Shown piece by piece: positions 24,715 to 36,885 of a stretch of DNA of 64,000 nucleotides (positions within the stretch are counted from its first letter, which is position 1; each line of letters starts with the position of its first letter). Source of the DNA: Neptunicoccus cionae (GTDB lineage: Bacteria; Pseudomonadota; Alphaproteobacteria; Rhodobacterales; Rhodobacteraceae); contig NZ_BMKA01000010.1 of NCBI RefSeq assembly GCF_014643735.1, forward strand, positions 1 to 64,000. Reading direction: 5' to 3'. The notes beneath the pieces are model-generated. The model saw only the letters and a list, made by a program, of their open reading frames with translations. It made no database searches and was not told the DNA's origin. Position numbers and translations under genes: made by a program.

Positions 24715-24852
24715 TTCTAAATTTGTTGCCTATTCAAACAGCGCCGATTTTATTAAAGATTTAACATAAGATGGACTCTCGGATTTTTGAAGGAGCACTT
24801 TCATAATTAACATAAACTTCATTATGCGAATCTATCATGTACGCGGGCACAT

Positions 24853-25926
24853 TCTAATCTGGGTTGCGAATTTTCCCCTATCTTGCTGGAAAGCAAGGAG
24901 AATGAAAGATGGCGCATACTGAGCTAAACGTGCGTGAACGACGCAGGATCGAGGATATGCTGAATGCTAAGATGTCAGTCGGTGAAATTGCCGCTGATAT
25001 TGGCAGGCATAGATCCACCGTCTATCGCGAGATCAAGCGGAACTATTACCACGATGAAGAGATCCCGTATCTGAATGGGTATTACGGATTGAACGCGCAA
25101 GACTACGCAACGGATCGACGCGCGCGGCGGCGCAAGCTAGTGCGTTTGGATGAACTTCGAAAAGCCGTCATCACGCAGCTTAAAGAAGGATGGTCGCCCG
25201 AACAAATCGCAGGCCGCCTTAAATTTGAAGGTCAAACAATCCGTGTGAGCCATGAGACGATCTATGCCTACGTTTACGGCCCCGATGGCCAATCCAGAGA
25301 ACTTGCCCGTTACCTGCCAAACCGCCGCAAGAAACGAAGGCCGCATCATTCGCGTAAGCCACGTGGCCTTGTGTTTCCACCGGATCGATCCATCCATGAA
25401 CGCCCAGACTACGTTGATGGCCGGGAGACGTTTGGCGAATGGGAAGGCGATCTGATGATCTTTGAACGCGCCCAAGGCAAAGCAAATGTTGCCTCTCTGG
25501 TAGAACGTAAGACCCGCTTTGCCGTCCTATTCCGCAACAACGACCGGAGCACGACGCACCTGATGAACCGGCTGATGAGCGTGATGGAACGCGTCCCCCA
25601 GCCCGCTCGCAAATCCATCACCTTTGATCGTGGGATTGAGTTCAGGAATTGGCGCAAACTGAAGCCAGGGATCGGAACGGAGGCTTGGTTCTGTGATCCT
25701 CAAGCCCCGTGGCAAAAGGGTTCTGTTGAGAACCTGAACAAACGTGCGCGCCGTTACTTGCCACGCGATGCGCCTGTAGCCGCGTTCTCAGATCGAGATA
25801 TGAAGTCGATCTGTGACCGCTTGAACGGCACCCCCAGAAAGTGTCTGGGATGGCGCACACCAACCGAAGCCTTCAGAGAAGAACTAATGAAACTGAGATA
25901 GCGGAAACCGTCGCAACGACACTTGA
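24853..25926 (+). mobile_element. IS30-family insertion sequence
   Basis: A transposase gene is framed by imperfect terminal inverted repeats: the left end near 24853-24869 and the right end near 25911-25926 share the core GTTGCGA/TCGCAAC and several flanking bases. The ends are placed to within a few bases only, and no target duplication was assigned with confidence. The element marks the border between the catabolic island and the defence island and seems intact. Confidence 0.75.
24909..25901 (+). CDS. IS30-family transposase
   Basis: A 330-residue DDE transposase. The N-terminal helix-turn-helix (about residues 9 to 43, with SVGEIAADIGRHRSTVYREIKRN) binds the ends. The DDE residues sit in FGEWEGDLM, TFDRGIEF and KGSVENLNKR. 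The length and motifs are those of full IS30 transposases, with no frameshift. A good AAGGAGAATGAAAG stretch precedes the ATG. Confidence 0.95.
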   Translation: MAHTELNVRERRRIEDMLNAKMSVGEIAADIGRHRSTVYREIKRNYYHDEEIPYLNGYYGLNAQDYATDRRARRRKLVRLDELRKAVITQLKEGWSPEQIAGRLKFEGQTIRVSHETIYAYVYGPDGQSRELARYLPNRRKKRRPHHSRKPRGLVFPPDRSIHERPDYVDGRETFGEWEGDLMIFERAQGKANVASLVERKTRFAVLFRNNDRSTTHLMNRLMSVMERVPQPARKSITFDRGIEFRNWRKLKPGIGTEAWFCDPQAPWQKGSVENLNKRARRYLPRDAPVAAFSDRDMKSICDRLNGTPRKCLGWRTPTEAFREELMKLR

Positions 25927-26119
25927 GTATCCAGCGGGTGCGCGCTACCCCCGACTGCGACTCTTGTTAGAAAACAAAAGGCGCAAGATAGAAGGTTGGC
26001 GGTACGCTGGGGTGCCGGTGAACGTGATGGCGCTCGACCATATTCCGCGAGTTCAAGCGCAATCCTTCTCCGATCCATGCATCCCGCTGGTCGAGGTGCC
26101 ATAGAGTGTCACGCAGCAT

Positions 26120-27325
26120 CTATTGCGGCATCTCCCCCGAAATCCGTTTGAGTCCGGCAGCGCGGGGATCATAGTGATAGCCCGTTATTGTGCCGTCCCT
26201 GATCTTTTCGACAGCGTCGTTGATTACAAAGAGAGGAACGAGGAACCATTCTCGCGGGACCACAGGCCTTCCAAAGCGATCCATGATCTCGATCTCGAGC
26301 CGTGCAGGTTCGAAAATGCGGTGGATCAGGTTCTCCAACTTGGACCGATTGATGTTGTAGAGCTCGTATGTCGCGACCACCTCGACATTCGCCATCAGAA
26401 ACGTCGGCTGCAACTGCGCGCCGGCGATCCGCTTCTCGACGCTCATATTGGTAACGCCGATCTTGTGCACCAGTTCCCGGTTTTCCGTGACGAGTGGATG
26501 ATCGGATTTGCTGCGAAGCACATAAATGATCCCGCTCGCCTCATCACCATCGATTGTCTGGTCCGAAAAAAGTGGGCCTGCCGATGGGTCAGTGATTCGG
26601 CGTCCCGCGCCGTCCTTGTTCAACGCGCGCTGGAGCGAGCGCATCAGCATGTTGCTCTCGGTGCCGTTGTCAAAAATCACCCGCAGACGAGCATCGGTAC
26701 GACCTTGCTCATTCGTGATGGTCTCACCCTTTTCAGTAACATAGGCTTTCTGACCGCCGACGATGAAAAAGCGGCCCTTCTCAATCTCGGCTTTCATCTC
26801 GAAAGGGCGGGTCTCCCGCAAACCGCTATCCAGTTCTTTCTGGACCATCTCGAACAATGGCTTGAACTTCGAAAAATCTTCGCATTTTTCGCGATTGGCG
26901 ACCTCGTCGGCGGCCTTTTTCTCGGCTGTAGAGCGGACATGCTTCAATTCTGTGAGTGGTGACTTGGCTACTTCTACGCCCAACTCAGCGAGCAGGGCAT
27001 CGTCTTCTAGATCTTCGGCGCCCGACGTTGAGGCCGCAAAGGTTTCTGCAAGAAGACCTTGCTCGTCCAGTGGGGCAAGGAGATCGCGGCACTCCTGCAA
27101 GTCGCGGATCCGATCAAGACGCACGGCGTAGAGGCGTTCAAAGATATCAAGATCCTCCCCGTGTTGGGGAGGCTGGCCATGCTCCTCTGCAAATCGCGAG
27201 ATTCCCTCAAAACCTGCGACGATGCGTTCTTCGCGTGGTGTGCGGCTGAGCTGCTTCTTGACTTCGACCTCGACGCCAAGCTCAGCAAGGAGGGCATCAT
27301 CTTCGTCGGTGAAACTCTTAGCCAT
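26120..27325 (-). CDS. GIY-YIG nuclease-domain protein of the defence operon
   Basis: A 401-residue protein. The C-terminal part is a GIY-YIG domain of the T5orf172/MUG113 type: GIIYVL (264-269), KIGVT (287-291), Arg298 in VEKRI, the catalytic-type Glu330 in SKLENLIHRIF, and EWF at 358-360. The N-terminal part is acidic and helical and contains the 12-residue string DDALLAELGVEV twice (9-20 and 108-119). It overlaps the helicase gene by 8 bp and is the last gene of the operon. The probable role is DNA cleavage together with the helicase, while the methylase protects the host; this is inferred from gene order and family. Confidence 0.8.
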   Translation of the reverse strand: MAKSFTDEDDALLAELGVEVEVKKQLSRTPREERIVAGFEGISRFAEEHGQPPQHGEDLDIFERLYAVRLDRIRDLQECRDLLAPLDEQGLLAETFAASTSGAEDLEDDALLAELGVEVAKSPLTELKHVRSTAEKKAADEVANREKCEDFSKFKPLFEMVQKELDSGLRETRPFEMKAEIEKGRFFIVGGQKAYVTEKGETITNEQGRTDARLRVIFDNGTESNMLMRSLQRALNKDGAGRRITDPSAGPLFSDQTIDGDEASGIIYVLRSKSDHPLVTENRELVHKIGVTNMSVEKRIAGAQLQPTFLMANVEVVATYELYNINRSKLENLIHRIFEPARLEIEIMDRFGRPVVPREWFLVPLFVINDAVEKIRDGTITGYHYDPRAAGLKRISGEMPQ

Positions 27326-29366
27326 TGGCAGCTTCCTGCTTCATGCGCGCGAGATAAGCCACACCTTCGGCCATTTTCTTTTCCCACGGGTCCGGTGAAG
27401 TAATCGACGGCAGGCGGCCTCGCTCTTGCTTGAACTTGACGGCTCGCTTCGCAAGATCGCGCGCCTCATCCGGTGACAGTTGCACTTTTTTCGCCGAGAT
27501 GACGGCCTGGACCTGCCGAAGGCTTTCCTCGCTCATAGTCTTTGCCAGAATCGAGTAGGCTTCGCCGAACGGGTTGATGCGATCAATCAGGTCGATGTCG
27601 AGTTCGCGCACGTCCATTGCGAATTTGCGCACCCCGTCGATCAAGGCGGTATTGCCGGTTGTTTCTGTGTCATCGCGGTTCGACAGCGCGATCTCTTTTG
27701 CCTTTTGGGTCAGGTTCAGCGCAGCAACTGCGTGTTGGCGCACCGCTTCCTGATCCTCTGCATCTAGCTCTGGGAACCTAGCACCGACAATCTTGCCCAT
27801 GCGGACCTGCGTCAGTTCCTCCGGCACCAGCTCTTCGTCGAAGAGACCCCGTTCGATCGTAGTCTTGTCCTGAACGAAAGCTGTGATGACCTCATTGAGG
27901 TCCTCTTGGCAGATGCGCTTGGCTTCCTTGCTCTTGGGTTCGACCAGGCCTTTGATTTCGATCTGGAACTGCCCGCTGGCCTCGTCGAAGCCGACGTTTT
28001 CCTTGTTGGGATCATAGCCGCCCTCACCGTAATCAAACCCTTCGACAGGGCCACTTTTCACGGTCTTGGGTGTGAAGTTGAAACGCGGGGCCAGCACCTG
28101 TTCCATCAGCAGGCTCGCTGCGATCGCTTTCAGTGTATCGTTGACTGCCTCGGTCACGGCTTCGGCCGCGGCGTCGGGCTCCGCGATAAGGTTGGTGAAG
28201 CGCGCGCGCATCTTGCCCTCGGCATCGCGGGTGGCACGGCCGATGATCTGCACGATCTCCGTCAGGCTGGCGCGATAACCCACCGTCAGGGCGTGTTCGC
28301 ACCAGATCCAGTCAAACCCTTCTTTCGCCATCCCGAGGGCGATGATGATGTCGACATGGTCGCGGTTGTTCTTATGCGCAGGGTCCTTCAGTGCGTTGGA
28401 CACCTTGTCCCGCTTGGCCGGTTCATCATCGACCAGATCGGCGATGCGCAGCACCCGCTCCTCGGGCGTCTTGACCAGCTGAAAGCCTGTGATGGGATCC
28501 GCTCCCTGCCAATCGCCCAGGGCGTCAATGATATGCTCGACCTCGCGATGCTTGTCCTTGGTGCTTTCGCGCGAGTTCACGTTCGGGATGTGAAGGATCG
28601 TCTTCTCGGTCGGATCCAAAACCTTGAGAATGTCGTCCGCATAGGACCCGGAATAGAAGAAATAACCGATGTCAAGCGTCTTGAGGTATTTGTAGCCATT
28701 CAATTGCTGATAGTAGGTATAGGTGAAGGTATCGAACTTTGCCTCATCTTCGGGCGACAGAACGGCTTCGGCATCGCCGCGGAAATAGGACCCGGTCATC
28801 GCAACCAGATGCACCTTGTCGCGCGCGACAAGGGCGCCCAGATGCGTGCCCAGCTTATTATCAGGGTTGGCAGAGACGTGGTGAAACTCGTCTACCGCGA
28901 TGAGCCGATCGTCAAACGCTTCAATCCCGAACTTGTCCACGGCGAACCGAAAGGTCGCGTGGGTGCAGACCAGAACCTTGTCGTCGCTCGCCAAGAACTT
29001 GCCGACAGCGCCCACTTTGCCATCATCCCCGCCGGGAGCGTTGCACAGGTTCCATCGCGGTTGCACGGTCCAGTCTGCCCAGAAGCCGTACTTGCTCAGT
29101 GGCTCGTCGTTGAAGCTGGACCCGATGGATTTTTCTGGCACCACGACGATGGCCTGACGCAGGCCCTGGTTGTATAGCTTGTCGAGTGCTATGAACATGA
29201 GCGCGCGGCTTTTGCCAGATGCCGGCGGCGACTTGATCAGCAGGTATTGCTCGCCCCGCTTCTCATAGGCACCCTCTTGCATTTCGCGCATGCCAAGCTC
29301 GTTCGATTTGGTCGAGCTTCCATTGGCCGCGTAATTGACAGAGACGGAAGGAACTTGCTTTGTCAT
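27318..29366 (-). CDS. SF2 DEAD/DEAH-type helicase of the defence operon
   Basis: A 682-residue helicase. Walker A is PASGKS (48-53), motif II is DEFH (159-162), motif III lies in AMTGSYFRGD, and motif VI is QIIGRATRD (373-381). The first 37 residues form a leader (PSVSVNYAANGS, NELGMREMQE) that is repeated in diverged form in the 49-residue gene at 31011. The C-terminal 300 residues carry no domain I recognise. It overlaps the GIY-YIG gene, and is separated from the ATPase gene by 175 bp that contain two copies of an 18-mer. It probably translocates on DNA to bring the nuclease to non-methylated targets. Confidence 0.87.
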   Translation of the reverse strand: MTKQVPSVSVNYAANGSSTKSNELGMREMQEGAYEKRGEQYLLIKSPPASGKSRALMFIALDKLYNQGLRQAIVVVPEKSIGSSFNDEPLSKYGFWADWTVQPRWNLCNAPGGDDGKVGAVGKFLASDDKVLVCTHATFRFAVDKFGIEAFDDRLIAVDEFHHVSANPDNKLGTHLGALVARDKVHLVAMTGSYFRGDAEAVLSPEDEAKFDTFTYTYYQQLNGYKYLKTLDIGYFFYSGSYADDILKVLDPTEKTILHIPNVNSRESTKDKHREVEHIIDALGDWQGADPITGFQLVKTPEERVLRIADLVDDEPAKRDKVSNALKDPAHKNNRDHVDIIIALGMAKEGFDWIWCEHALTVGYRASLTEIVQIIGRATRDAEGKMRARFTNLIAEPDAAAEAVTEAVNDTLKAIAASLLMEQVLAPRFNFTPKTVKSGPVEGFDYGEGGYDPNKENVGFDEASGQFQIEIKGLVEPKSKEAKRICQEDLNEVITAFVQDKTTIERGLFDEELVPEELTQVRMGKIVGARFPELDAEDQEAVRQHAVAALNLTQKAKEIALSNRDDTETTGNTALIDGVRKFAMDVRELDIDLIDRINPFGEAYSILAKTMSEESLRQVQAVISAKKVQLSPDEARDLAKRAVKFKQERGRLPSITSPDPWEKKMAEGVAYLARMKQEAANG

Positions 29367-29412
29367 GATGTTTTCCTTCTGAGGGGCGCAGAATCATTCG
29401 CTTTAGGGCAGG

Positions 29413-29529
29413 CAATCAAAACCCGATCAAGTAGCGATACCGCACCACGCCTATCGTAACAGTATGATTTATATGTATTTTCCAATTTACGCCCTCTAGC
29501 CCACATACGCACAATCAAAACCCGATCAA
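29413..29529. repeat. two direct copies of an 18-mer, 99 bp apart
   Basis: CAATCAAAACCCGATCAA occurs exactly at 29413-29430 and again at 29512-29529, in the gap between the AlbA_2/HATPase gene and the helicase gene. The intervening 81 bp are not similar to each other. They could be operator copies for the downstream helicase genes or a scar of recombination. With only two copies and unlike spacing this is not a CRISPR. Confidence 0.6.
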
Positions 29530-29541
29530 ATGTTATCCCTG

Positions 29542-31014
29542 TCACGCCCATGAGGGGACATAGCCAGCACGAGGGCGTTCAGCATCCGCAGGACGGATCA
29601 GACCAGCATCCAGCGTTGCGCGAATAACCCGCGACGCCTGCGCAGCGTTCTGGTCGTCGATGCCGAGCCGCTCCCGAAGTGTCGCGTTCGTCATCTTCTG
29701 ACCGCCTACGTATTTGAGCGCGGCATGTTGGTAACACGCTCGCACGGCTTCTTCCGGTGTCATGTCCGCAAAGCGGCGTGGTGCAAACAGAACCACGCGC
29801 ACGGCGTCTCCCTCCATGCGGAAATCCGGTGGGGGCAACTGGTGTAGCTCAACCGCCGAGATCACCTTGTCGATGCCGGTGCCTTGTTCTTCGCAAAGTT
29901 TCATGCGCCGCATCAAGGAAGCAAGAGCTTCATTTCGGGAACGCGGGGGCGAGTCCAAAAACCGGTCGGGGCTAACCAAGGGGGCGCCCGGGTTCGTGAT
30001 CTCCATGCGATCGCTGAATAACTCGATGAGTGGACCGGCACCGGTGATCGTCATGTCCTGGTGGATCAATGCGTTGGCGATCAATTCGCGGATCGCTATC
30101 GACGGGTAGAGCGGACGCTCCTCGCGGAATGCTTTACCAATCAATTCGTTGCGGGGCAGAAGGCCGTCGATGTAATCCACCAGCCCCTGAAATCCCGCTG
30201 CATAGCCGCGCTGGCCGTCCTGGCGGTGGCTCACGTCATCTGCACGTCCGGTGCCAGCATAGGCCACGAAACGAACCCCTTTGCGCTCTACAGAGGGGCC
30301 GAAATCGGAAAGTTTCTTGGCATACAGGATTGCGCCCAGATTGGTAATGTTCCAGCGGTCGCTTACATCTTTCTGGATCAGACGATCTGCCAATAGCTTG
30401 TCGAAGATCCCCTGCCTGTTATCCGGCAAGGGCTGGCCCGTAAGATCGAAGTAGTTGGCGTAATTCAGCCGCGCAAGAACGTCGTCGCCGGACAGGAACT
30501 GCGCCGCGACGCCTGTCTCCCAAGCGTAGGGCTGCAACTTGCTCCAGAGGGCACGCAGGCGTTCCGGATGGTCGGACAGGCGCGGCGTGGCACTGCCGAT
30601 GCGCAAATAGGCGGTCCGGTCAAACTCTACCGGAGCGGTTGCGGCGGCGGGGATAGTCAGCAGGATCAGGCGCTGCCCGTCATGATCGACCTCTTCGAAC
30701 CGGAACTCGATGCCCGGCTGGAGGTGGTTGGCCACCCACAGTTCGAGCGGCTGCCCCTTCTCCTTTTTCACGGTCGGCTCGAAACTCGTGCCGACAACCG
30801 CATGATCGCCGTCTCGCACCCCCCAGACCACATAGGCATAGTGCTGATCGGCCAGCCGTGCAGCATTGGACAAGGCAGAGATCAGCTTGCCGATCAACGG
30901 CCCGTCGGCATTGTTTTCCTTGAACTCGATCCATGTGGTTTCCGCTGGTTTGGCACGCAGATCGTCCACCAACCTGCGGGTGCGTTCCGCGCTCATGACA
31001 GGGTCAAGGGTCAT
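29542..31014 (-). CDS. AlbA_2/HATPase ATP-binding protein
   Basis: A 490-residue protein. The N-terminal AlbA_2 (Schlafen-type) domain is marked by TTWIEFKEN (about 26-34) and AYVVWGVRDGD; the C-terminal half has an HATPase_c_4-type block with IRELIANALIHQD and SDRMEITNPGAPL, and a winged-helix-like end. The start at 31014 is chosen because its ATG overlaps the stop of the 49-residue gene by 4 bp; a longer frame from 31068 lacks this. Such proteins occur as regulators or effectors in defence islands, and would be the ATPase of an Hma-like system. Its exact activity is unknown. Confidence 0.8.
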   Translation of the reverse strand: MTLDPVMSAERTRRLVDDLRAKPAETTWIEFKENNADGPLIGKLISALSNAARLADQHYAYVVWGVRDGDHAVVGTSFEPTVKKEKGQPLELWVANHLQPGIEFRFEEVDHDGQRLILLTIPAAATAPVEFDRTAYLRIGSATPRLSDHPERLRALWSKLQPYAWETGVAAQFLSGDDVLARLNYANYFDLTGQPLPDNRQGIFDKLLADRLIQKDVSDRWNITNLGAILYAKKLSDFGPSVERKGVRFVAYAGTGRADDVSHRQDGQRGYAAGFQGLVDYIDGLLPRNELIGKAFREERPLYPSIAIRELIANALIHQDMTITGAGPLIELFSDRMEITNPGAPLVSPDRFLDSPPRSRNEALASLMRRMKLCEEQGTGIDKVISAVELHQLPPPDFRMEGDAVRVVLFAPRRFADMTPEEAVRACYQHAALKYVGGQKMTNATLRERLGIDDQNAAQASRVIRATLDAGLIRPADAERPRAGYVPSWA

Positions 31015-31160
31015 AGTGTGTCCACTTTCTGACCCACCACGCCTGGGTAGCGTTTGTCGTAGGGGCATTCCTGTATTGCTCGCCGGCCCAGGTCGTTCGG
31101 CTTGGCCGGGCTACCGTTGGTGGCATAAATAATCGAAATGGAGGGAAAACCTTTGATCAT
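31011..31160 (-). pseudogene. 49-residue remnant of a second helicase N-terminus
   Basis: The frame from the ATG at 31160 to the TGA at 31011 encodes 49 residues whose first 36 align with residues 1-37 of the helicase at 27318: PSISIIYATNGS against PSVSVNYAANGS, then NDLGRRAIQE against NELGMREMQE, then Y-K-R. About 18 of 32 aligned residues are identical; similarity stops before Walker A. The gene overlaps its neighbours on both sides by 4 bp (ATGA), so it is still placed to be translated. I read it as the stump of an older helicase gene cut by the arrival of the AlbA_2/HATPase gene. Confidence 0.65.
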
Positions 31161-32041
31161 TGACCTCTCACCCGCTTATCAAAACGTCTTAAAAATATGC
31201 GGGCTGTGATCAGGATTATTTGAAACCGAAAAGCACAATCTTCTTCATCTGACAGGCCCGGATGGCTGCCGTGCGGATGCAATCTTGCCCACAACCCCAA
31301 TACGTACGCAGGTTTGCCTCTGTCGTTCTCCCACTCATTGTATTCGTGAAGTAGGAACGGTCCCGATTTTGTATCTGCAAGATATTGCCTCTTTGCGTCA
31401 TCGCTAACCTTAGGATCACATCCAAAATACTCCGCAATTTTGTCCAGCAGTTCCTGATAGAAATCTCTGATCATCGCGTTGGCGGAAGACCAGTTCCCTT
31501 GCGAAAAGTTCTGAATCGCTTGATCCAAATGCCCCTTGGCGGCGCCCAACCCGTGCCGACCAAGTAAGGCCTCAATTTCGCTGGTCGCCTCTCGAAAATC
31601 TGTCTCAGGTACATCCTCAGGCAGCATCCGCCTGAGAACAGTCTGTGTAATGACCCTTGGAGCGTCATCGAAAATGGAAGATCTGCCCATTGGGTCTGGA
31701 ACCTCCTCTTCCACAAGTGTGAAGCCATCCATTTTCAGACCAGCAAGAAGACGCAACCAGACATCTGGCTTGTTGCGCTTGCTTTGCTCGGATGCCGTAA
31801 TTGCATGCTCAATCATGGCTCTGCTTAGGTCACAGTTTCCGTTGACCGTCGGAACAGAACGTCCCCCCATACTGCTTCTTGCGAACCGAACCATTTCAAT
31901 GGCCTTCGATGCTACCGATCCAGAACCACAGAATTCGTCAACACCCCACCCTAGGGTGAGAGACGAGAAAGCGGTTTGTGTCGACATTTCAGCAATCATC
32001 TCGCCCGCTGCCATCAACGTCATGCTGTTAAAGTCGCTCAT
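31157..32041 (-). CDS. possible abortive-infection-type protein
   Basis: A 294-residue protein without a signal peptide or clear membrane segment. The last third, with AYVLGLWARLHPHGSHPGLSDEEDCAFRFQIILITARIFLRRF, resembles the C-terminal domain of abortive-infection-type proteins (PF14355-like), but this rests on pattern memory only. The N-terminal half is unknown. It overlaps the methyltransferase gene by 4 bp and the helicase stump by 4 bp, so it belongs to the same translational chain. Confidence 0.55.
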   Translation of the reverse strand: MSDFNSMTLMAAGEMIAEMSTQTAFSSLTLGWGVDEFCGSGSVASKAIEMVRFARSSMGGRSVPTVNGNCDLSRAMIEHAITASEQSKRNKPDVWLRLLAGLKMDGFTLVEEEVPDPMGRSSIFDDAPRVITQTVLRRMLPEDVPETDFREATSEIEALLGRHGLGAAKGHLDQAIQNFSQGNWSSANAMIRDFYQELLDKIAEYFGCDPKVSDDAKRQYLADTKSGPFLLHEYNEWENDRGKPAYVLGLWARLHPHGSHPGLSDEEDCAFRFQIILITARIFLRRFDKRVRGQ

Positions 32042-34761
32042 GCGCTCACCTTCGTCGTCATCTTCGTGTACATCTCGAACAGTTTTTCCAGCCGTTCGGT
32101 GTCGTTGCGGAAACGGCGGCCGATGTAGATGCGTTCCAGCACCTCGTCGTTGTGGTCATGCGCTGCGCGGAGGTTGGCGGGCATTTTTTCGGGGTCGTAG
32201 AGGTCGGCGATGGTGGCGGGGAAATGCGCCTCGCGGGCCAGAAGGATACCTTCGGCCGCCGCTGTCAGGTCGGCGCGGTTCTTTTCGGTCAGTTTCGGGA
32301 CGGGGAAGGTGTTCCAGCCCATGGTGTTAGAGTAGCGATATCGAGTTTCCAGCTTCCCGCAAACCGTGGCGATCCAGACCAGATGCAGGCGCGAGGCGAT
32401 CAGCGCCATGTTCCAGAGCGGGGCATCGTATAATGCGAGAGCGAGATTGGATACGCGAACGTCACTGGGCATCAAGCCACACGGCAGGTATTCTCGACGT
32501 TCAGAGGATACGCTTGGAACGACGATGGAATTTACTTCTCCAATGATTGTTCGCTCGAACTTGTACGGCGTCAGCAAGCCCGCTTTGCCGCGCTCGCTCC
32601 CACCCTGTCGGTAGATTCGAATGCGCTCCAAACGTTCCGCAATCGGAGGTATTGAGAATGCAAGTTCTGCTTGGTGATCTTCAATCCAAAGACAATATCT
32701 TTGTTGCCCATTGATGAACTCGCTCGATCCTACAATTGGCTTCACGAGAGGAGATGCCTGAGGGAAACCTTCCAAGAGATCGTTCGCTTCGTCAGGCGAC
32801 AGTAACAGGTTGCCCTGATCCCGCGGTATGTTGCCGCCGAACATTGTCGCTATCTCTGCAATTGGTTCAGAGGCACGTTCAACAATAATATTGGCCCCTT
32901 CGGTGAGGTATGCATTTATGGCTTCGACTGACTTCATGAAGTCAGCTCCATAAATAGCTTTGGACCGTTCACCAACAGCGGCGATCCCAACGATCACACA
33001 GGTGACCTGAGCATTCTTGCTCGCATTATTGCCCCAAAGAAAGTTCTGATGTCCGAAAAATATTTCTTGTCCGTTCTGAAAAATTCGGGGCCAGATCAAC
33101 GGAACTTGGACACCTTGGCAAATCGAGTTTGTAGAAACAAACGCGAAACAGCCGCCATACTTGATGAAGTCCGATGCCTTCCAGAACCAACCCGCGATGT
33201 AGTCAATTGCACGTACTTTTTTGTTTCCTGGTAGCAGCGCGTTCAGATCGTCCTTTTGCTCCTTGGTCTGATATTTGTCGCCGACATAAGGCGGGTTTCC
33301 GCAAACATACGTCTCGCCTCCTTCATTCGCGAAATCGATCTGCGCCTGATCCAGCGGCGACATGAACAAGTCATCCGCTTGAAACTTCACCCCCGTCCCC
33401 GTGGGCGGGCAGACCGACAGCCAGTCCAGCCGCAGGGCGTTGCCACAGGTGATCCAGTTCTGCGCGTCTAGCGGCAGGAACTCGGCCAACGCCTCTTTCT
33501 GGCCGCGATAGGTCACGTCGCATTGATATTCCGCGATGATCAGCGCCAGCCGCGCGATCTCGGCCGAGAAGTCGCGTAGTTCGATCCCGCGATAGTTGGT
33601 CAGGGGAATGTCGGTGCGGCGCAGCGGCTCGCCCCGGCGCTTGTTGATCTCATACTCGATCGCGCGCATTTCCTTGTAGGCGATCACAAGGAAGTTGCCC
33701 GACCCGCAGGCGGGGTCGAACACGCGGATCTTGGCCATGCGGGCGCGCAGATTGGCCAGCTTGCGGGCGTTGTCGCCCGCCGCCTCCAGTTCTGCCCGCA
33801 GATCATCTAGGAAGAGCGGGTTCAGCACCTTCAGAATGTTCGGCACGGACGTGTAGTGCATGCCGAGGACCGAGCGTTCCACCTCATCCGCGACGGCCTG
33901 GATCATCGAGCCGAAAATATCGGGGTTGATCTGTGTCCAGTCGAGGCTGCCGATATGGGACAGGTAGCGCTGCGCGATCTTGGAAAAGCGCGGCACATCG
34001 GTGCTGCCCGAGAAGAGGCCACCGTTCACATAGGGAAAGGTGTCGGCCCAGCGGGGCAGCTTGGCCTCGGCCCGTTTGGGGATGGCGGTGTTCATCGCAC
34101 GGAAGATCTCGCCGATGACTTCGTGCGTGTTCGACCCGTCGCGGTTCGCCATCTGGTCGATGGTGGCGGTGAACAGGTTGTCGCTGACGAAGATGTCGGT
34201 GTCTTCGGCGAAGAAGCAGAAGATCAGCCGCGCCATGAAATGGTTCATGTCGTGGCGTTTTTCGGCGCTGCCCCAGTCGGGGTTGTCCTTGATCAGCTCG
34301 ACATAGAGCCGGTTGAGGCGGCTGGTGGCGCGGATGTCAAACGCACTTTCGCGGATCTGCTTGACGGTAGAGATGCCGGCGAGCGGCAGGAAGAAGCCGA
34401 AGTGATCGGGGAAATCGGTGTAGCGGCAGGCGATGGTCTCGCCGGTGGTGATGTCCTCGGCCTCGAGGTCGATGCCGTCAGTGGCGAGGATGAACTTCGC
34501 CTTGGCGCGGGAGGTGGCAGGGCTTTCGCGCAGGGCGGCGAGGGTTGCCGCGATTTCGCCCGGGACGCAGGTCGCAAGGTGGATGTTGTTGGTCTGCAGG
34601 ACGCCGCCGATGTCGGACTTGTTCGATGCGCCGGTGCGCAGGCGCTTGATTGTCGTCTCCTTGTTTCCGAAGGCCATGAGGAAGGCATAGGGGAACTCTG
34701 CCGCATCAAAGGGCTGCTCGGCGAGTTCGGAAACGGCTTGTTCAATCTCAACGGCGTTCAT
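32038..34761 (-). CDS. MmeI-type class I DNA methyltransferase
   Basis: A 907-residue N6-adenine-type methyltransferase. Motif I is FDPACGSG (348-355), motif IV is NPPY (489-492), and the C-terminal half would hold the target-recognition domain. The N-terminal block ASNKSDIGGVLQTNN and PDHFGFFLPLAGI are those of the MmeI family. The PD-ExK nuclease block of true type IIL MmeI enzymes (an E-x-K motif in the first 150 residues) is not visible. The start at 34761 is chosen for its ATGA overlap with the toxin gene. It probably marks host DNA, with restriction left to the helicase and GIY-YIG proteins. Confidence 0.85.
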   Translation of the reverse strand: MNAVEIEQAVSELAEQPFDAAEFPYAFLMAFGNKETTIKRLRTGASNKSDIGGVLQTNNIHLATCVPGEIAATLAALRESPATSRAKAKFILATDGIDLEAEDITTGETIACRYTDFPDHFGFFLPLAGISTVKQIRESAFDIRATSRLNRLYVELIKDNPDWGSAEKRHDMNHFMARLIFCFFAEDTDIFVSDNLFTATIDQMANRDGSNTHEVIGEIFRAMNTAIPKRAEAKLPRWADTFPYVNGGLFSGSTDVPRFSKIAQRYLSHIGSLDWTQINPDIFGSMIQAVADEVERSVLGMHYTSVPNILKVLNPLFLDDLRAELEAAGDNARKLANLRARMAKIRVFDPACGSGNFLVIAYKEMRAIEYEINKRRGEPLRRTDIPLTNYRGIELRDFSAEIARLALIIAEYQCDVTYRGQKEALAEFLPLDAQNWITCGNALRLDWLSVCPPTGTGVKFQADDLFMSPLDQAQIDFANEGGETYVCGNPPYVGDKYQTKEQKDDLNALLPGNKKVRAIDYIAGWFWKASDFIKYGGCFAFVSTNSICQGVQVPLIWPRIFQNGQEIFFGHQNFLWGNNASKNAQVTCVIVGIAAVGERSKAIYGADFMKSVEAINAYLTEGANIIVERASEPIAEIATMFGGNIPRDQGNLLLSPDEANDLLEGFPQASPLVKPIVGSSEFINGQQRYCLWIEDHQAELAFSIPPIAERLERIRIYRQGGSERGKAGLLTPYKFERTIIGEVNSIVVPSVSSERREYLPCGLMPSDVRVSNLALALYDAPLWNMALIASRLHLVWIATVCGKLETRYRYSNTMGWNTFPVPKLTEKNRADLTAAAEGILLAREAHFPATIADLYDPEKMPANLRAAHDHNDEVLERIYIGRRFRNDTERLEKLFEMYTKMTTKVSA

Positions 34762-35180
34762 GCGGTAGTCCAGGGGTTGATCAGGTCGATCTCGCAACCC
34801 TCGAAGTCAGGCGTGTTGCGCGTGGCGACGGAGGCACCACGGGTGTGGGCAATTGAGGCAATCTGGCAATCGGCCTGGGTGATCGGTCGCCCGGCGGACC
34901 GTCGTGCGGCGGAGATGGCGGCATAGGACTGCGCGGCGGCGCTGTCGAAAGGCAGAATGCGCCCCGCAAGGTCCTCACGCAGGATGCTGTCCACTGCATC
35001 AACCAGCGCGGCGCGCCGCTTGCCGTTCCCCATGATCGCGAGGCCGTAGCGCAGTTCCGCTTCCGATATCGAGGTCAGGTAGACGTTGAGCCCGTCCTGC
35101 GCCGACAGCCATTGCTCGACCCTCGGCTCGGGAGCCGGGCGCAACAGCTCAGAGAGGACATTCGTGTCGAGGATGATCAT
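34758..35180 (-). CDS. FitB/VapC-like PIN-domain toxin
   Basis: A 140-residue PIN-domain ribonuclease. Acidic residues expected at the metal site are visible: Asp5 (DTN), Glu42 (SEAELRYG), Asp104 (TQADCQIA) and Asp125 (TPDFEG). It starts 3 bp after the antitoxin gene, and its stop overlaps the ATG of the DNA methyltransferase by 4 bp. The pair may be an ordinary addiction module, or may guard the defence operon so that its loss or failure becomes toxic. Confidence 0.88.
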   Translation of the reverse strand: MIILDTNVLSELLRPAPEPRVEQWLSAQDGLNVYLTSISEAELRYGLAIMGNGKRRAALVDAVDSILREDLAGRILPFDSAAAQSYAAISAARRSAGRPITQADCQIASIAHTRGASVATRNTPDFEGCEIDLINPWTTA

Positions 35181-35183
35181 GCG

Positions 35184-35432
35184 TCAGGCCTGGTCGAACG
35201 CGGGCGGTTCACGCATGGCTTCACGCTGCGGAAGGTCGAGATCAACGCCACCCAGAGGCGCGACCCGCTCGCGGATGGCCGCGGCAAGATCGTGGGATGG
35301 CTTCGCTTCGCCGACAACATGGCGCAAGATCTCGCGCGCCTCCTCTTCCATCGAACGGCCGTGCTCAGCCGCACGGATGCGAAGGCGGCGCTTCACGTCA
35401 TCGTCAAGGTTCCGGATGGTAATGCTTGCCAT
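35184..35432 (-). CDS. FitA-like ribbon-helix-helix antitoxin
   Basis: An 82-residue antitoxin with an N-terminal ribbon-helix-helix (MASITIRNLDDDVKRRLRIRAAEHGRSMEEEAREIL in parts) and a C-terminal tail that would plug the PIN toxin. A strong CAGGAGGAG site precedes the ATG. The complex usually represses its own promoter; the inverted repeat at 35459 is the candidate operator. It is the first gene of the defence operon. Confidence 0.9.
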   Translation of the reverse strand: MASITIRNLDDDVKRRLRIRAAEHGRSMEEEAREILRHVVGEAKPSHDLAAAIRERVAPLGGVDLDLPQREAMREPPAFDQA

Positions 35433-36717: not shown

Positions 36718-36885
36718 TGTTTACTGACTTCCTGCACTGTGGCGCTTAATTTGCGGCATGGTGTCATAAGGCGCTCACTTGCGCCGCAGGCCGCACATGG
36801 TGGATGTTGGCTAACTGCTATTCCTTGAGGAAGCTGATCTCACGAGGGCACACCCCAAAGCGGTACTCCTCAAAATGCATTGTTC

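Follow-up and report, generated by a model that had tools for sequence, protein, structure and literature searches.

The DnmA-YeeB-YeeC clusters (yeeABC) of Bacillus subtilis and Vibrio crassostreae comprise, in this order, genes for an MmeI-like methylase without a nuclease motif, a superfamily 2 (SF2) helicase and a T5orf172/GIY-YIG nuclease; the available parts of the two accounts also mention an uncharacterized family that may be another member of the locus, and describe no exchange slot (PMC9973331, PMC7261158). Deletions of dnmA and yeeB in V. crassostreae resulted in greater sensitivity to some phages, whereas the cluster of B. subtilis was not protective in the tests applied, according to the portion of that study available (PMC9973331), and the accessible sections of both accounts conclude that B. 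subtilis DnmA is an orphan epigenetic regulator and that the helicase and nuclease no longer restrict (PMC7261158, PMC9973331). Here we analyze an operon in a 64,000-nucleotide stretch of the genome of the marine bacterium Neptunicoccus cionae (contig NZ_BMKA01000010.1, positions 1 to 64,000; hereinafter the window), which has the methylase, helicase and nuclease types and the gene order of these clusters and differs from them by a cargo gene and an AlbA_2 module located between methylase and helicase and by a FitAB toxin-antitoxin pair at the operon head. This is probably a plasmid-borne restriction-modification operon of the DnmA-YeeB-YeeC type in which the methylase-helicase junction is a slot for an interchangeable effector.

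The operon occupies positions 26120-35432 on the minus strand, where all eight features listed in the initial annotation of this DNA are present in the order given there: FitA, FitB, MmeI-type methylase, Abi-like protein, helicase stump, AlbA_2/HATPase protein, helicase and GIY-YIG nuclease. The 4-bp overlaps claimed for every junction from toxin to ATPase were also found, as four ATGA overlaps (FitB/methylase, 34758-34761; methylase/Abi, 32038-32041; Abi/stump, 31157-31160; stump/AlbA_2, 31011-31014), and of the other junctions, FitA and FitB are spaced by 3 bp, AlbA_2 and helicase by 175 bp, and helicase and GIY-YIG overlap by 8 bp. We chose 31014 as the start of AlbA_2; in the NCBI annotation the same gene begins 18 bp later. 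The features are as follows, L-numbers denoting related loci compared with the window:
35184..35432, minus strand: FitA-like ribbon-helix-helix (RHH) antitoxin, 82 amino acids (aa) (Pfam PF22513, E 2.9e-21)
34758..35180, minus strand: FitB/VapC-like PIN toxin, 140 aa (PF01850, E 1.1e-14); stop overlaps methylase start by 4 bp
32038..34761, minus strand: MmeI-type DNA methylase (DnmA/YeeA-like), 907 aa from the ATG at 34761 (Pfam, motif scan, PADLOC)
32439..33285, minus strand: exchanged methylase specificity zone, about residues 492-774 (DNA mismatch between window and L038)
31157..32041, minus strand: cargo gene for the Abi-like protein, 294 aa, with a tentative C-terminal HEPN-like domain (about 161-294)
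31163..32037, minus strand: stretch exchanged for another gene in L037 (break in DNA match)
31011..31160, minus strand: helicase stump, open reading frame (ORF) of 49 residues, a displaced copy of the beginning of the helicase gene (overlaps each neighbour by 4 bp)
29542..31014, minus strand: SLFN_AlbA_2 and HATPase_c_4 protein, 490 aa, predicted regulator (PF04326, E 4.6e-15; PF13749, E 6.5e-25)
29512..29529, minus strand: predicted operator site 1, TTGATCGGGTTTTGATTG (repeat search)
29413..29430, minus strand: predicted operator site 2, identical to site 1 and 99 bp from it (repeat search)
27318..29366, minus strand: SF2 helicase (YeeB-like), 682 aa (PPASGKS, DEFH, QIIGRATR; 11-sequence alignment)
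26120..27325, minus strand: GIY-YIG/T5orf172 nuclease (YeeC-like), 401 aa (T5orf172 PF10544, E 1.4e-11; MUG113 PF13455, E 9.4e-16)

The methylase contains all five Pfam domains of the type IIL enzyme MmeI (MTase PF20473, E 5.9e-111), with the motifs DPACGSG at residue 349 and NPPY at residue 489 detected in a motif scan, and it matches PADLOC PDLC03598 (961 bits). MmeI carries a PD-ExK nuclease in the same chain, whereas the pattern D-x(6-20)-[ED]xK was not found in a scan of residues 1-200 of the window methylase, and helicase and GIY-YIG nuclease are encoded here by separate genes on the same strand, one directly after the other; cutting would therefore fall to these two proteins. The helicase matches to the Pfam families DEAD, ResIII and Helicase_C are weak (E 2e-4 to 2e-2, below the Pfam cut-offs). 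B. subtilis has an MmeI_Mtase match, and one plasmid homologue (H106) is annotated as YeeB. Judged by these sequence features, the core is the known but little-studied DnmA-YeeB-YeeC cluster, so that the GIY-YIG nuclease, taken for an added part in the initial annotation, belongs to the core as the available descriptions define it (PMC9973331, PMC7261158). The split restriction system proposed there fits, including the lack of the nuclease pattern in methylase residues 1-200, and the suicide back-up attached to it is plausible as an inference: the C-terminus of the Abi-like protein is HEPN-like with moderate confidence, and in other loci the slot is occupied by toxin, Abi and nuclease genes. 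By contrast, the suggested resemblance to Hma (helicase, m5C methylase, ATPase) did not hold. The operon has three broad labels in common with Hma and the Hma-embedded candidates of PADLOC (helicase, methylase and ATPase) along with the idea of guilt by embedding (available parts of PMC8565338 and PMC12988326), but the Hma methylase HmaB is a predicted 5-methylcytosine (m5C) enzyme (PMC8565338, in the part available), whereas the methylase of the window is of the MmeI type, with PF20473 and NPPY, and no PADLOC Hma model matched the operon proteins at E <= 0.001. Hma was therefore ruled out as the identity of the operon, and a variant of Hma is hardly credible.

To compare gene order across related loci, we analyzed 10 plasmid loci chosen out of 264 records with a helicase match, the best 80 of 551 confirmed GTDB stretches, 35 viral-contig loci with helicase relatives, and evenly drawn genomes, in which a match was found in 17 of 385 genomes of the class and 22 of 398 of the phylum, four genomes being in both; the larger locus set and the evenly drawn set overlap. 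Together with the window, the 151 loci made 152 sequences; a plus-strand helicase hit was present in 136, and 123 of these also had a readable methylase end, the other 13 being dropped, mostly because the contig or flank ended too soon. A GIY-YIG match lies directly behind the helicase in 132 of the 136 loci, with a readable methylase end in front in 123; of the four loci lacking the match, two reach the contig end first, and in the other two (L147, L148) the helicase match is only partial. Helicase and GIY-YIG gene are spaced by -35 to +15 bp in all 132 readable loci and by -26 to +211 bp in 35 of the 36 places of the evenly drawn set; the value of 3685 for the last, L154, is an artefact of its stump being read as the helicase start. 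The core was found in loci of many genera, including some with Bacillota names (L087, L095, L103), and on chromosome-sized contigs (e.g., L043, L049) as well as on plasmids. In one locus (L015:12317-13111) an Abi-alpha family gene directly follows the GIY-YIG gene, so a second accessory position may exist downstream. Between the window and L037, which lacks the Abi gene, the ratio of nonsynonymous to synonymous substitution rates (dN/dS) is 0.04-0.14 for FitA, FitB, methylase, AlbA_2, helicase and GIY-YIG (0.04 for the helicase and 0.09 for GIY-YIG), and by this measure the six shared genes are under purifying selection. With the GIY-YIG and methylase neighbours counted above, the association of these genes is more than chance.

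In 66 of the 123 loci the junction between methylase and helicase is filled, holding one or more ORFs of at least 55 aa; it is shorter than 60 bp in 52 and a gap of 90-336 bp without such an ORF in 5. After removal of seven near-identical rows, 63 of 116 junctions are filled, as are 17 of the 36 places in the evenly drawn genomes, where one filled place, in L154, belongs to the same operon as in the window and those in L175 and L189 hold ORFs of doubtful status. The occupants form about 30 protein clusters, and cargo begins with a 4-bp overlap in 46 of the 66 filled slots; no gene was seen between helicase and nuclease in the 132 readable loci and the evenly drawn set. Pfam scans covered 22 of the 30 cargo clusters, and 12 of the 22 pass the curated cut-off: AlbA_2, RhuM, YhcG, Zeta, GmrSD_N, DUF559, CoiA_N, FRG, DUF3800, DUF6088, AbiEii and BrnT. 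RhuM and YhcG match the PADLOC candidates PDC-S05 and PDC-S02, respectively. A FastTree phylogeny of 119 helicases implies at least 56 changes of cargo state and at least 27 changes between empty and filled; given that 60 shuffles average 37.65, some inheritance remains.

In close relatives the Abi gene is exchanged for a PD-(D/E)XK-like or a HEPN-annotated gene. L037 is 93.6% identical to the window as far as the final base of the methylase stop codon and 91.8% identical from 31162 on, where the match resumes a few bases before the Abi stop, with a different gene in between and the methylase specificity segment kept. Conversely, L038 has the same Abi gene but no DNA match to the methylase at 33285-32439, flanked by 92.8% and 96.5% identity; given these opposite exchanges, the cargo can change without the specificity segment and the specificity segment without the cargo. 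L153 (P. pseudonitzschiae) contains a third cargo, which carries the annotation HEPN protein and has no PADLOC or NCBIfam model match. The match of this locus to the window stops inside the helicase (L153:10456-11018), and its gene table, which is incomplete, lists toxin, methylase, cargo and AlbA_2 but not helicase or GIY-YIG. Among 11 close pairs picked by hand for near helicases and different cargo, the slot DNA is mismatched in 10, the remaining pair (L081/L089) having a common RhuM gene that matches and differing only by an extra gene; the middle of the methylase is mismatched in 10 as well, and in the eleventh pair the contig begins too late to judge. Taken at the level of sequence, the junction between methylase and helicase is a slot for gene exchange. 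That defence genes can be embedded in type I and Hma systems is already known from the available parts of two papers (PMC12255303, PMC12988326), and in the RptR island, as far as its partly available description goes, DarTG2 lies between hsdS and hsdR of a type I system at a site called a potential recombination hotspot (PMC12255303). Searches for this cluster in open-licence papers, among them PMC9973331, PMC7261158 and PMC12458937, found no description of such a slot in DnmA-YeeB-YeeC.

The gene filling the slot in the window is present as the initial annotation had it, but its 'Abi' label was a guess: in our scans the family has no significant PADLOC, Pfam, NCBIfam or PHROGs model match. 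Its C-terminus (about 161-294) is tentatively HEPN-like. Rx4-6H is the HEPN motif, and R253-x6-H260 is present in all six sequences of alignment A3, whereas the wider set of 11 keeps H260 but not R253. Profile comparison revealed no relation between the Abi-like family and the 277-aa cargo family, and neither the Abi-like nor the helicase alignment found a match in sequence searches of the PDB. In the five loci examined for this (L002-L006), Abi-like relatives are located away from the core. One of them, on a Xanthomonas plasmid (L004:6862-9813), lies two genes after a gene for a HEPN/Toprim-associated protein on the same strand.

In its first 37 residues the stump corresponds to the N-terminus of the helicase, matching it at 54% in the window and at 81-84% in L037. 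A script run over the distinct AlbA_2 loci found the stump in the window, L001, L037, L038 and L041 but not in L062, L076, L084 and L088; because it is seen only in the group of the window, the helicase start seems to have been the entry point of the AlbA_2 module in this lineage, the module bringing its own helicase start and leaving the old one behind. Between AlbA_2 and the helicase, two copies of TTGATCGGGTTTTGATYG occur at a distance of exactly 99 bp in the window and likewise in L062 and L084 (with 3 mismatches in the second L084 copy); the window has 2 copies against a mean of 0.09 in shuffles and, with up to 3 mismatches allowed, no further copy elsewhere. Direct repeats follow AlbA_2 in all five loci examined, and in distant AlbA_2/HATPase loci these are other repeats with 10-11 bp spacing at the same place (five at L076:8905-8973 and four at L088:8850-8893), which fits a predicted operator of the AlbA_2 protein that evolves with its regulator. 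The RptR island, with its effector genes before the restriction subunit as here, also has a regulator that binds direct repeats, but its genes are type I hsd genes, the repeats belong to the island promoter and the regulator is a small dimeric repressor, whereas here the repeats precede the helicase-nuclease pair after an AlbA_2/HATPase gene (PMC12255303, in the part available). A promoter scan was uninformative (2 sites against 3.3 in shuffles). A 62-aa ORF (29551-29363) considered as a gene was rejected: outside the two repeats, little of it is conserved when the window is compared with L062 and L084, and for this reason the stretch was read as leader DNA, although coding is still compatible with the 7 silent and 9 changing differences from L037.

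At the operon head, the FitA-like RHH gene adjoins the PIN toxin gene. Of the 102 loci with readable upstream sequence, 10 have a FitB-like PIN gene next to the methylase; four of these 10 (the window, L001, L038 and L041) hold this operon in nearly identical form, and a fifth, L037, is closely related. The neighbour belongs to a second cluster, HigA-like as annotated in L007 and L012, in 10 loci and to a third (RHH-like in our own reading) in 6, while 38 have no adjoining ORF of 60 aa. From these counts, a toxin-antitoxin pair is a recurring optional partner of the core.

L001 carries an identical operon on a plasmid of conjugative type. This locus, otherwise 99.9% identical, lacks an insertion of about 1.09 kb (24848-25933) that contains an IS30-like transposase ORF (24909-25901); the ends of the match have 5 bp in common, as in a target duplication. 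At 36736-36885, before conjugation genes, identity to L001 drops from 99.9% to 88-93%. The operon block thus looks like a segment that two different backbones have come to share recently.

Gene order, overlaps, protein families, recurrence, exchange of cargo and specificity segment, stump and repeats are read directly from the DNA, and several explanations of what they serve have to be weighed. The cargo genes could be independent passengers, that is, single-gene defence or selfish genes that use the operon promoter and the overlap start as a safe harbour, with no wiring to restriction. The Abi-like relatives away from the core, the PADLOC candidates among the cargo (RhuM and YhcG) and the many empty slots (52 of 123 under 60 bp) are all consistent with this explanation; the repeated use of one junction with the overlap start, and never of that between helicase and nuclease, argues against it, although this is also compatible with passengers, so that it falls just short of an even call. 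Another explanation is that the methylase is an orphan epigenetic regulator and that the helicase and nuclease no longer restrict, as was concluded for B. subtilis DnmA; the L153 match that ends inside the helicase, with the caveat of the incomplete gene table, points in the same direction, but the low dN/dS of helicase and GIY-YIG indicates that both genes are maintained by purifying selection, and we consider such a relic unlikely.

It is also conceivable that the operon is mainly a plasmid addiction module, in which FitAB and the restriction-modification pair would punish plasmid loss, with phage defence being incidental. The identical operon on the conjugative-type plasmid and the FitB-like gene next to the methylase in some loci are in line with this possibility, but the core is also found on chromosome-sized contigs (L043, L049) and the PIN toxin only in a minority of loci, which makes this explanation, if anything, slightly less likely than the relic.

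Under the preferred reading, a restriction-modification operon with an effector slot, we infer each biochemical step, antiphage function included, from the sequences. The MmeI-type methylase would mark one adenine per non-palindromic site on host DNA, and DNA without the mark would be destroyed by the helicase and the GIY-YIG nuclease, which probably act with the methylase in a type I-like manner. The slot would carry an interchangeable effector, here the Abi-like and tentatively HEPN-like protein, expected to be an RNase-type back-up. The second module, AlbA_2/HATPase with its phased repeats, apparently added at the helicase start, probably controls expression of helicase and nuclease separately from methylase and effector, and FitAB probably autoregulates the operon and makes it addictive. 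The exchange of toxin-like or nuclease genes in the slot suggests an anti-virus system with exchangeable weapons. A more far-reaching and doubtful proposal is that DnmA-YeeB-YeeC is a modular immune chassis, in which the target-recognition segment (self) and the pre-helicase weapon slot (punishment) are exchanged independently, the weapon is wired to fire when restriction is subverted, and AlbA_2/HATPase proteins are regulators of restriction genes that read repeats phased by 10-11 bp, the module here having replaced the helicase start and left the stump.

If the preferred reading holds, a little-studied restriction family would gain a clear architecture suited to discovery through guilt by embedding, and the genes that rotate through the slot, among them the Abi-like family without a model match, would be candidate effectors. 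The same architecture would offer a testable explanation for the fact that only some DnmA-YeeB-YeeC clusters are protective, as well as a candidate operator for the AlbA_2/HATPase proteins.

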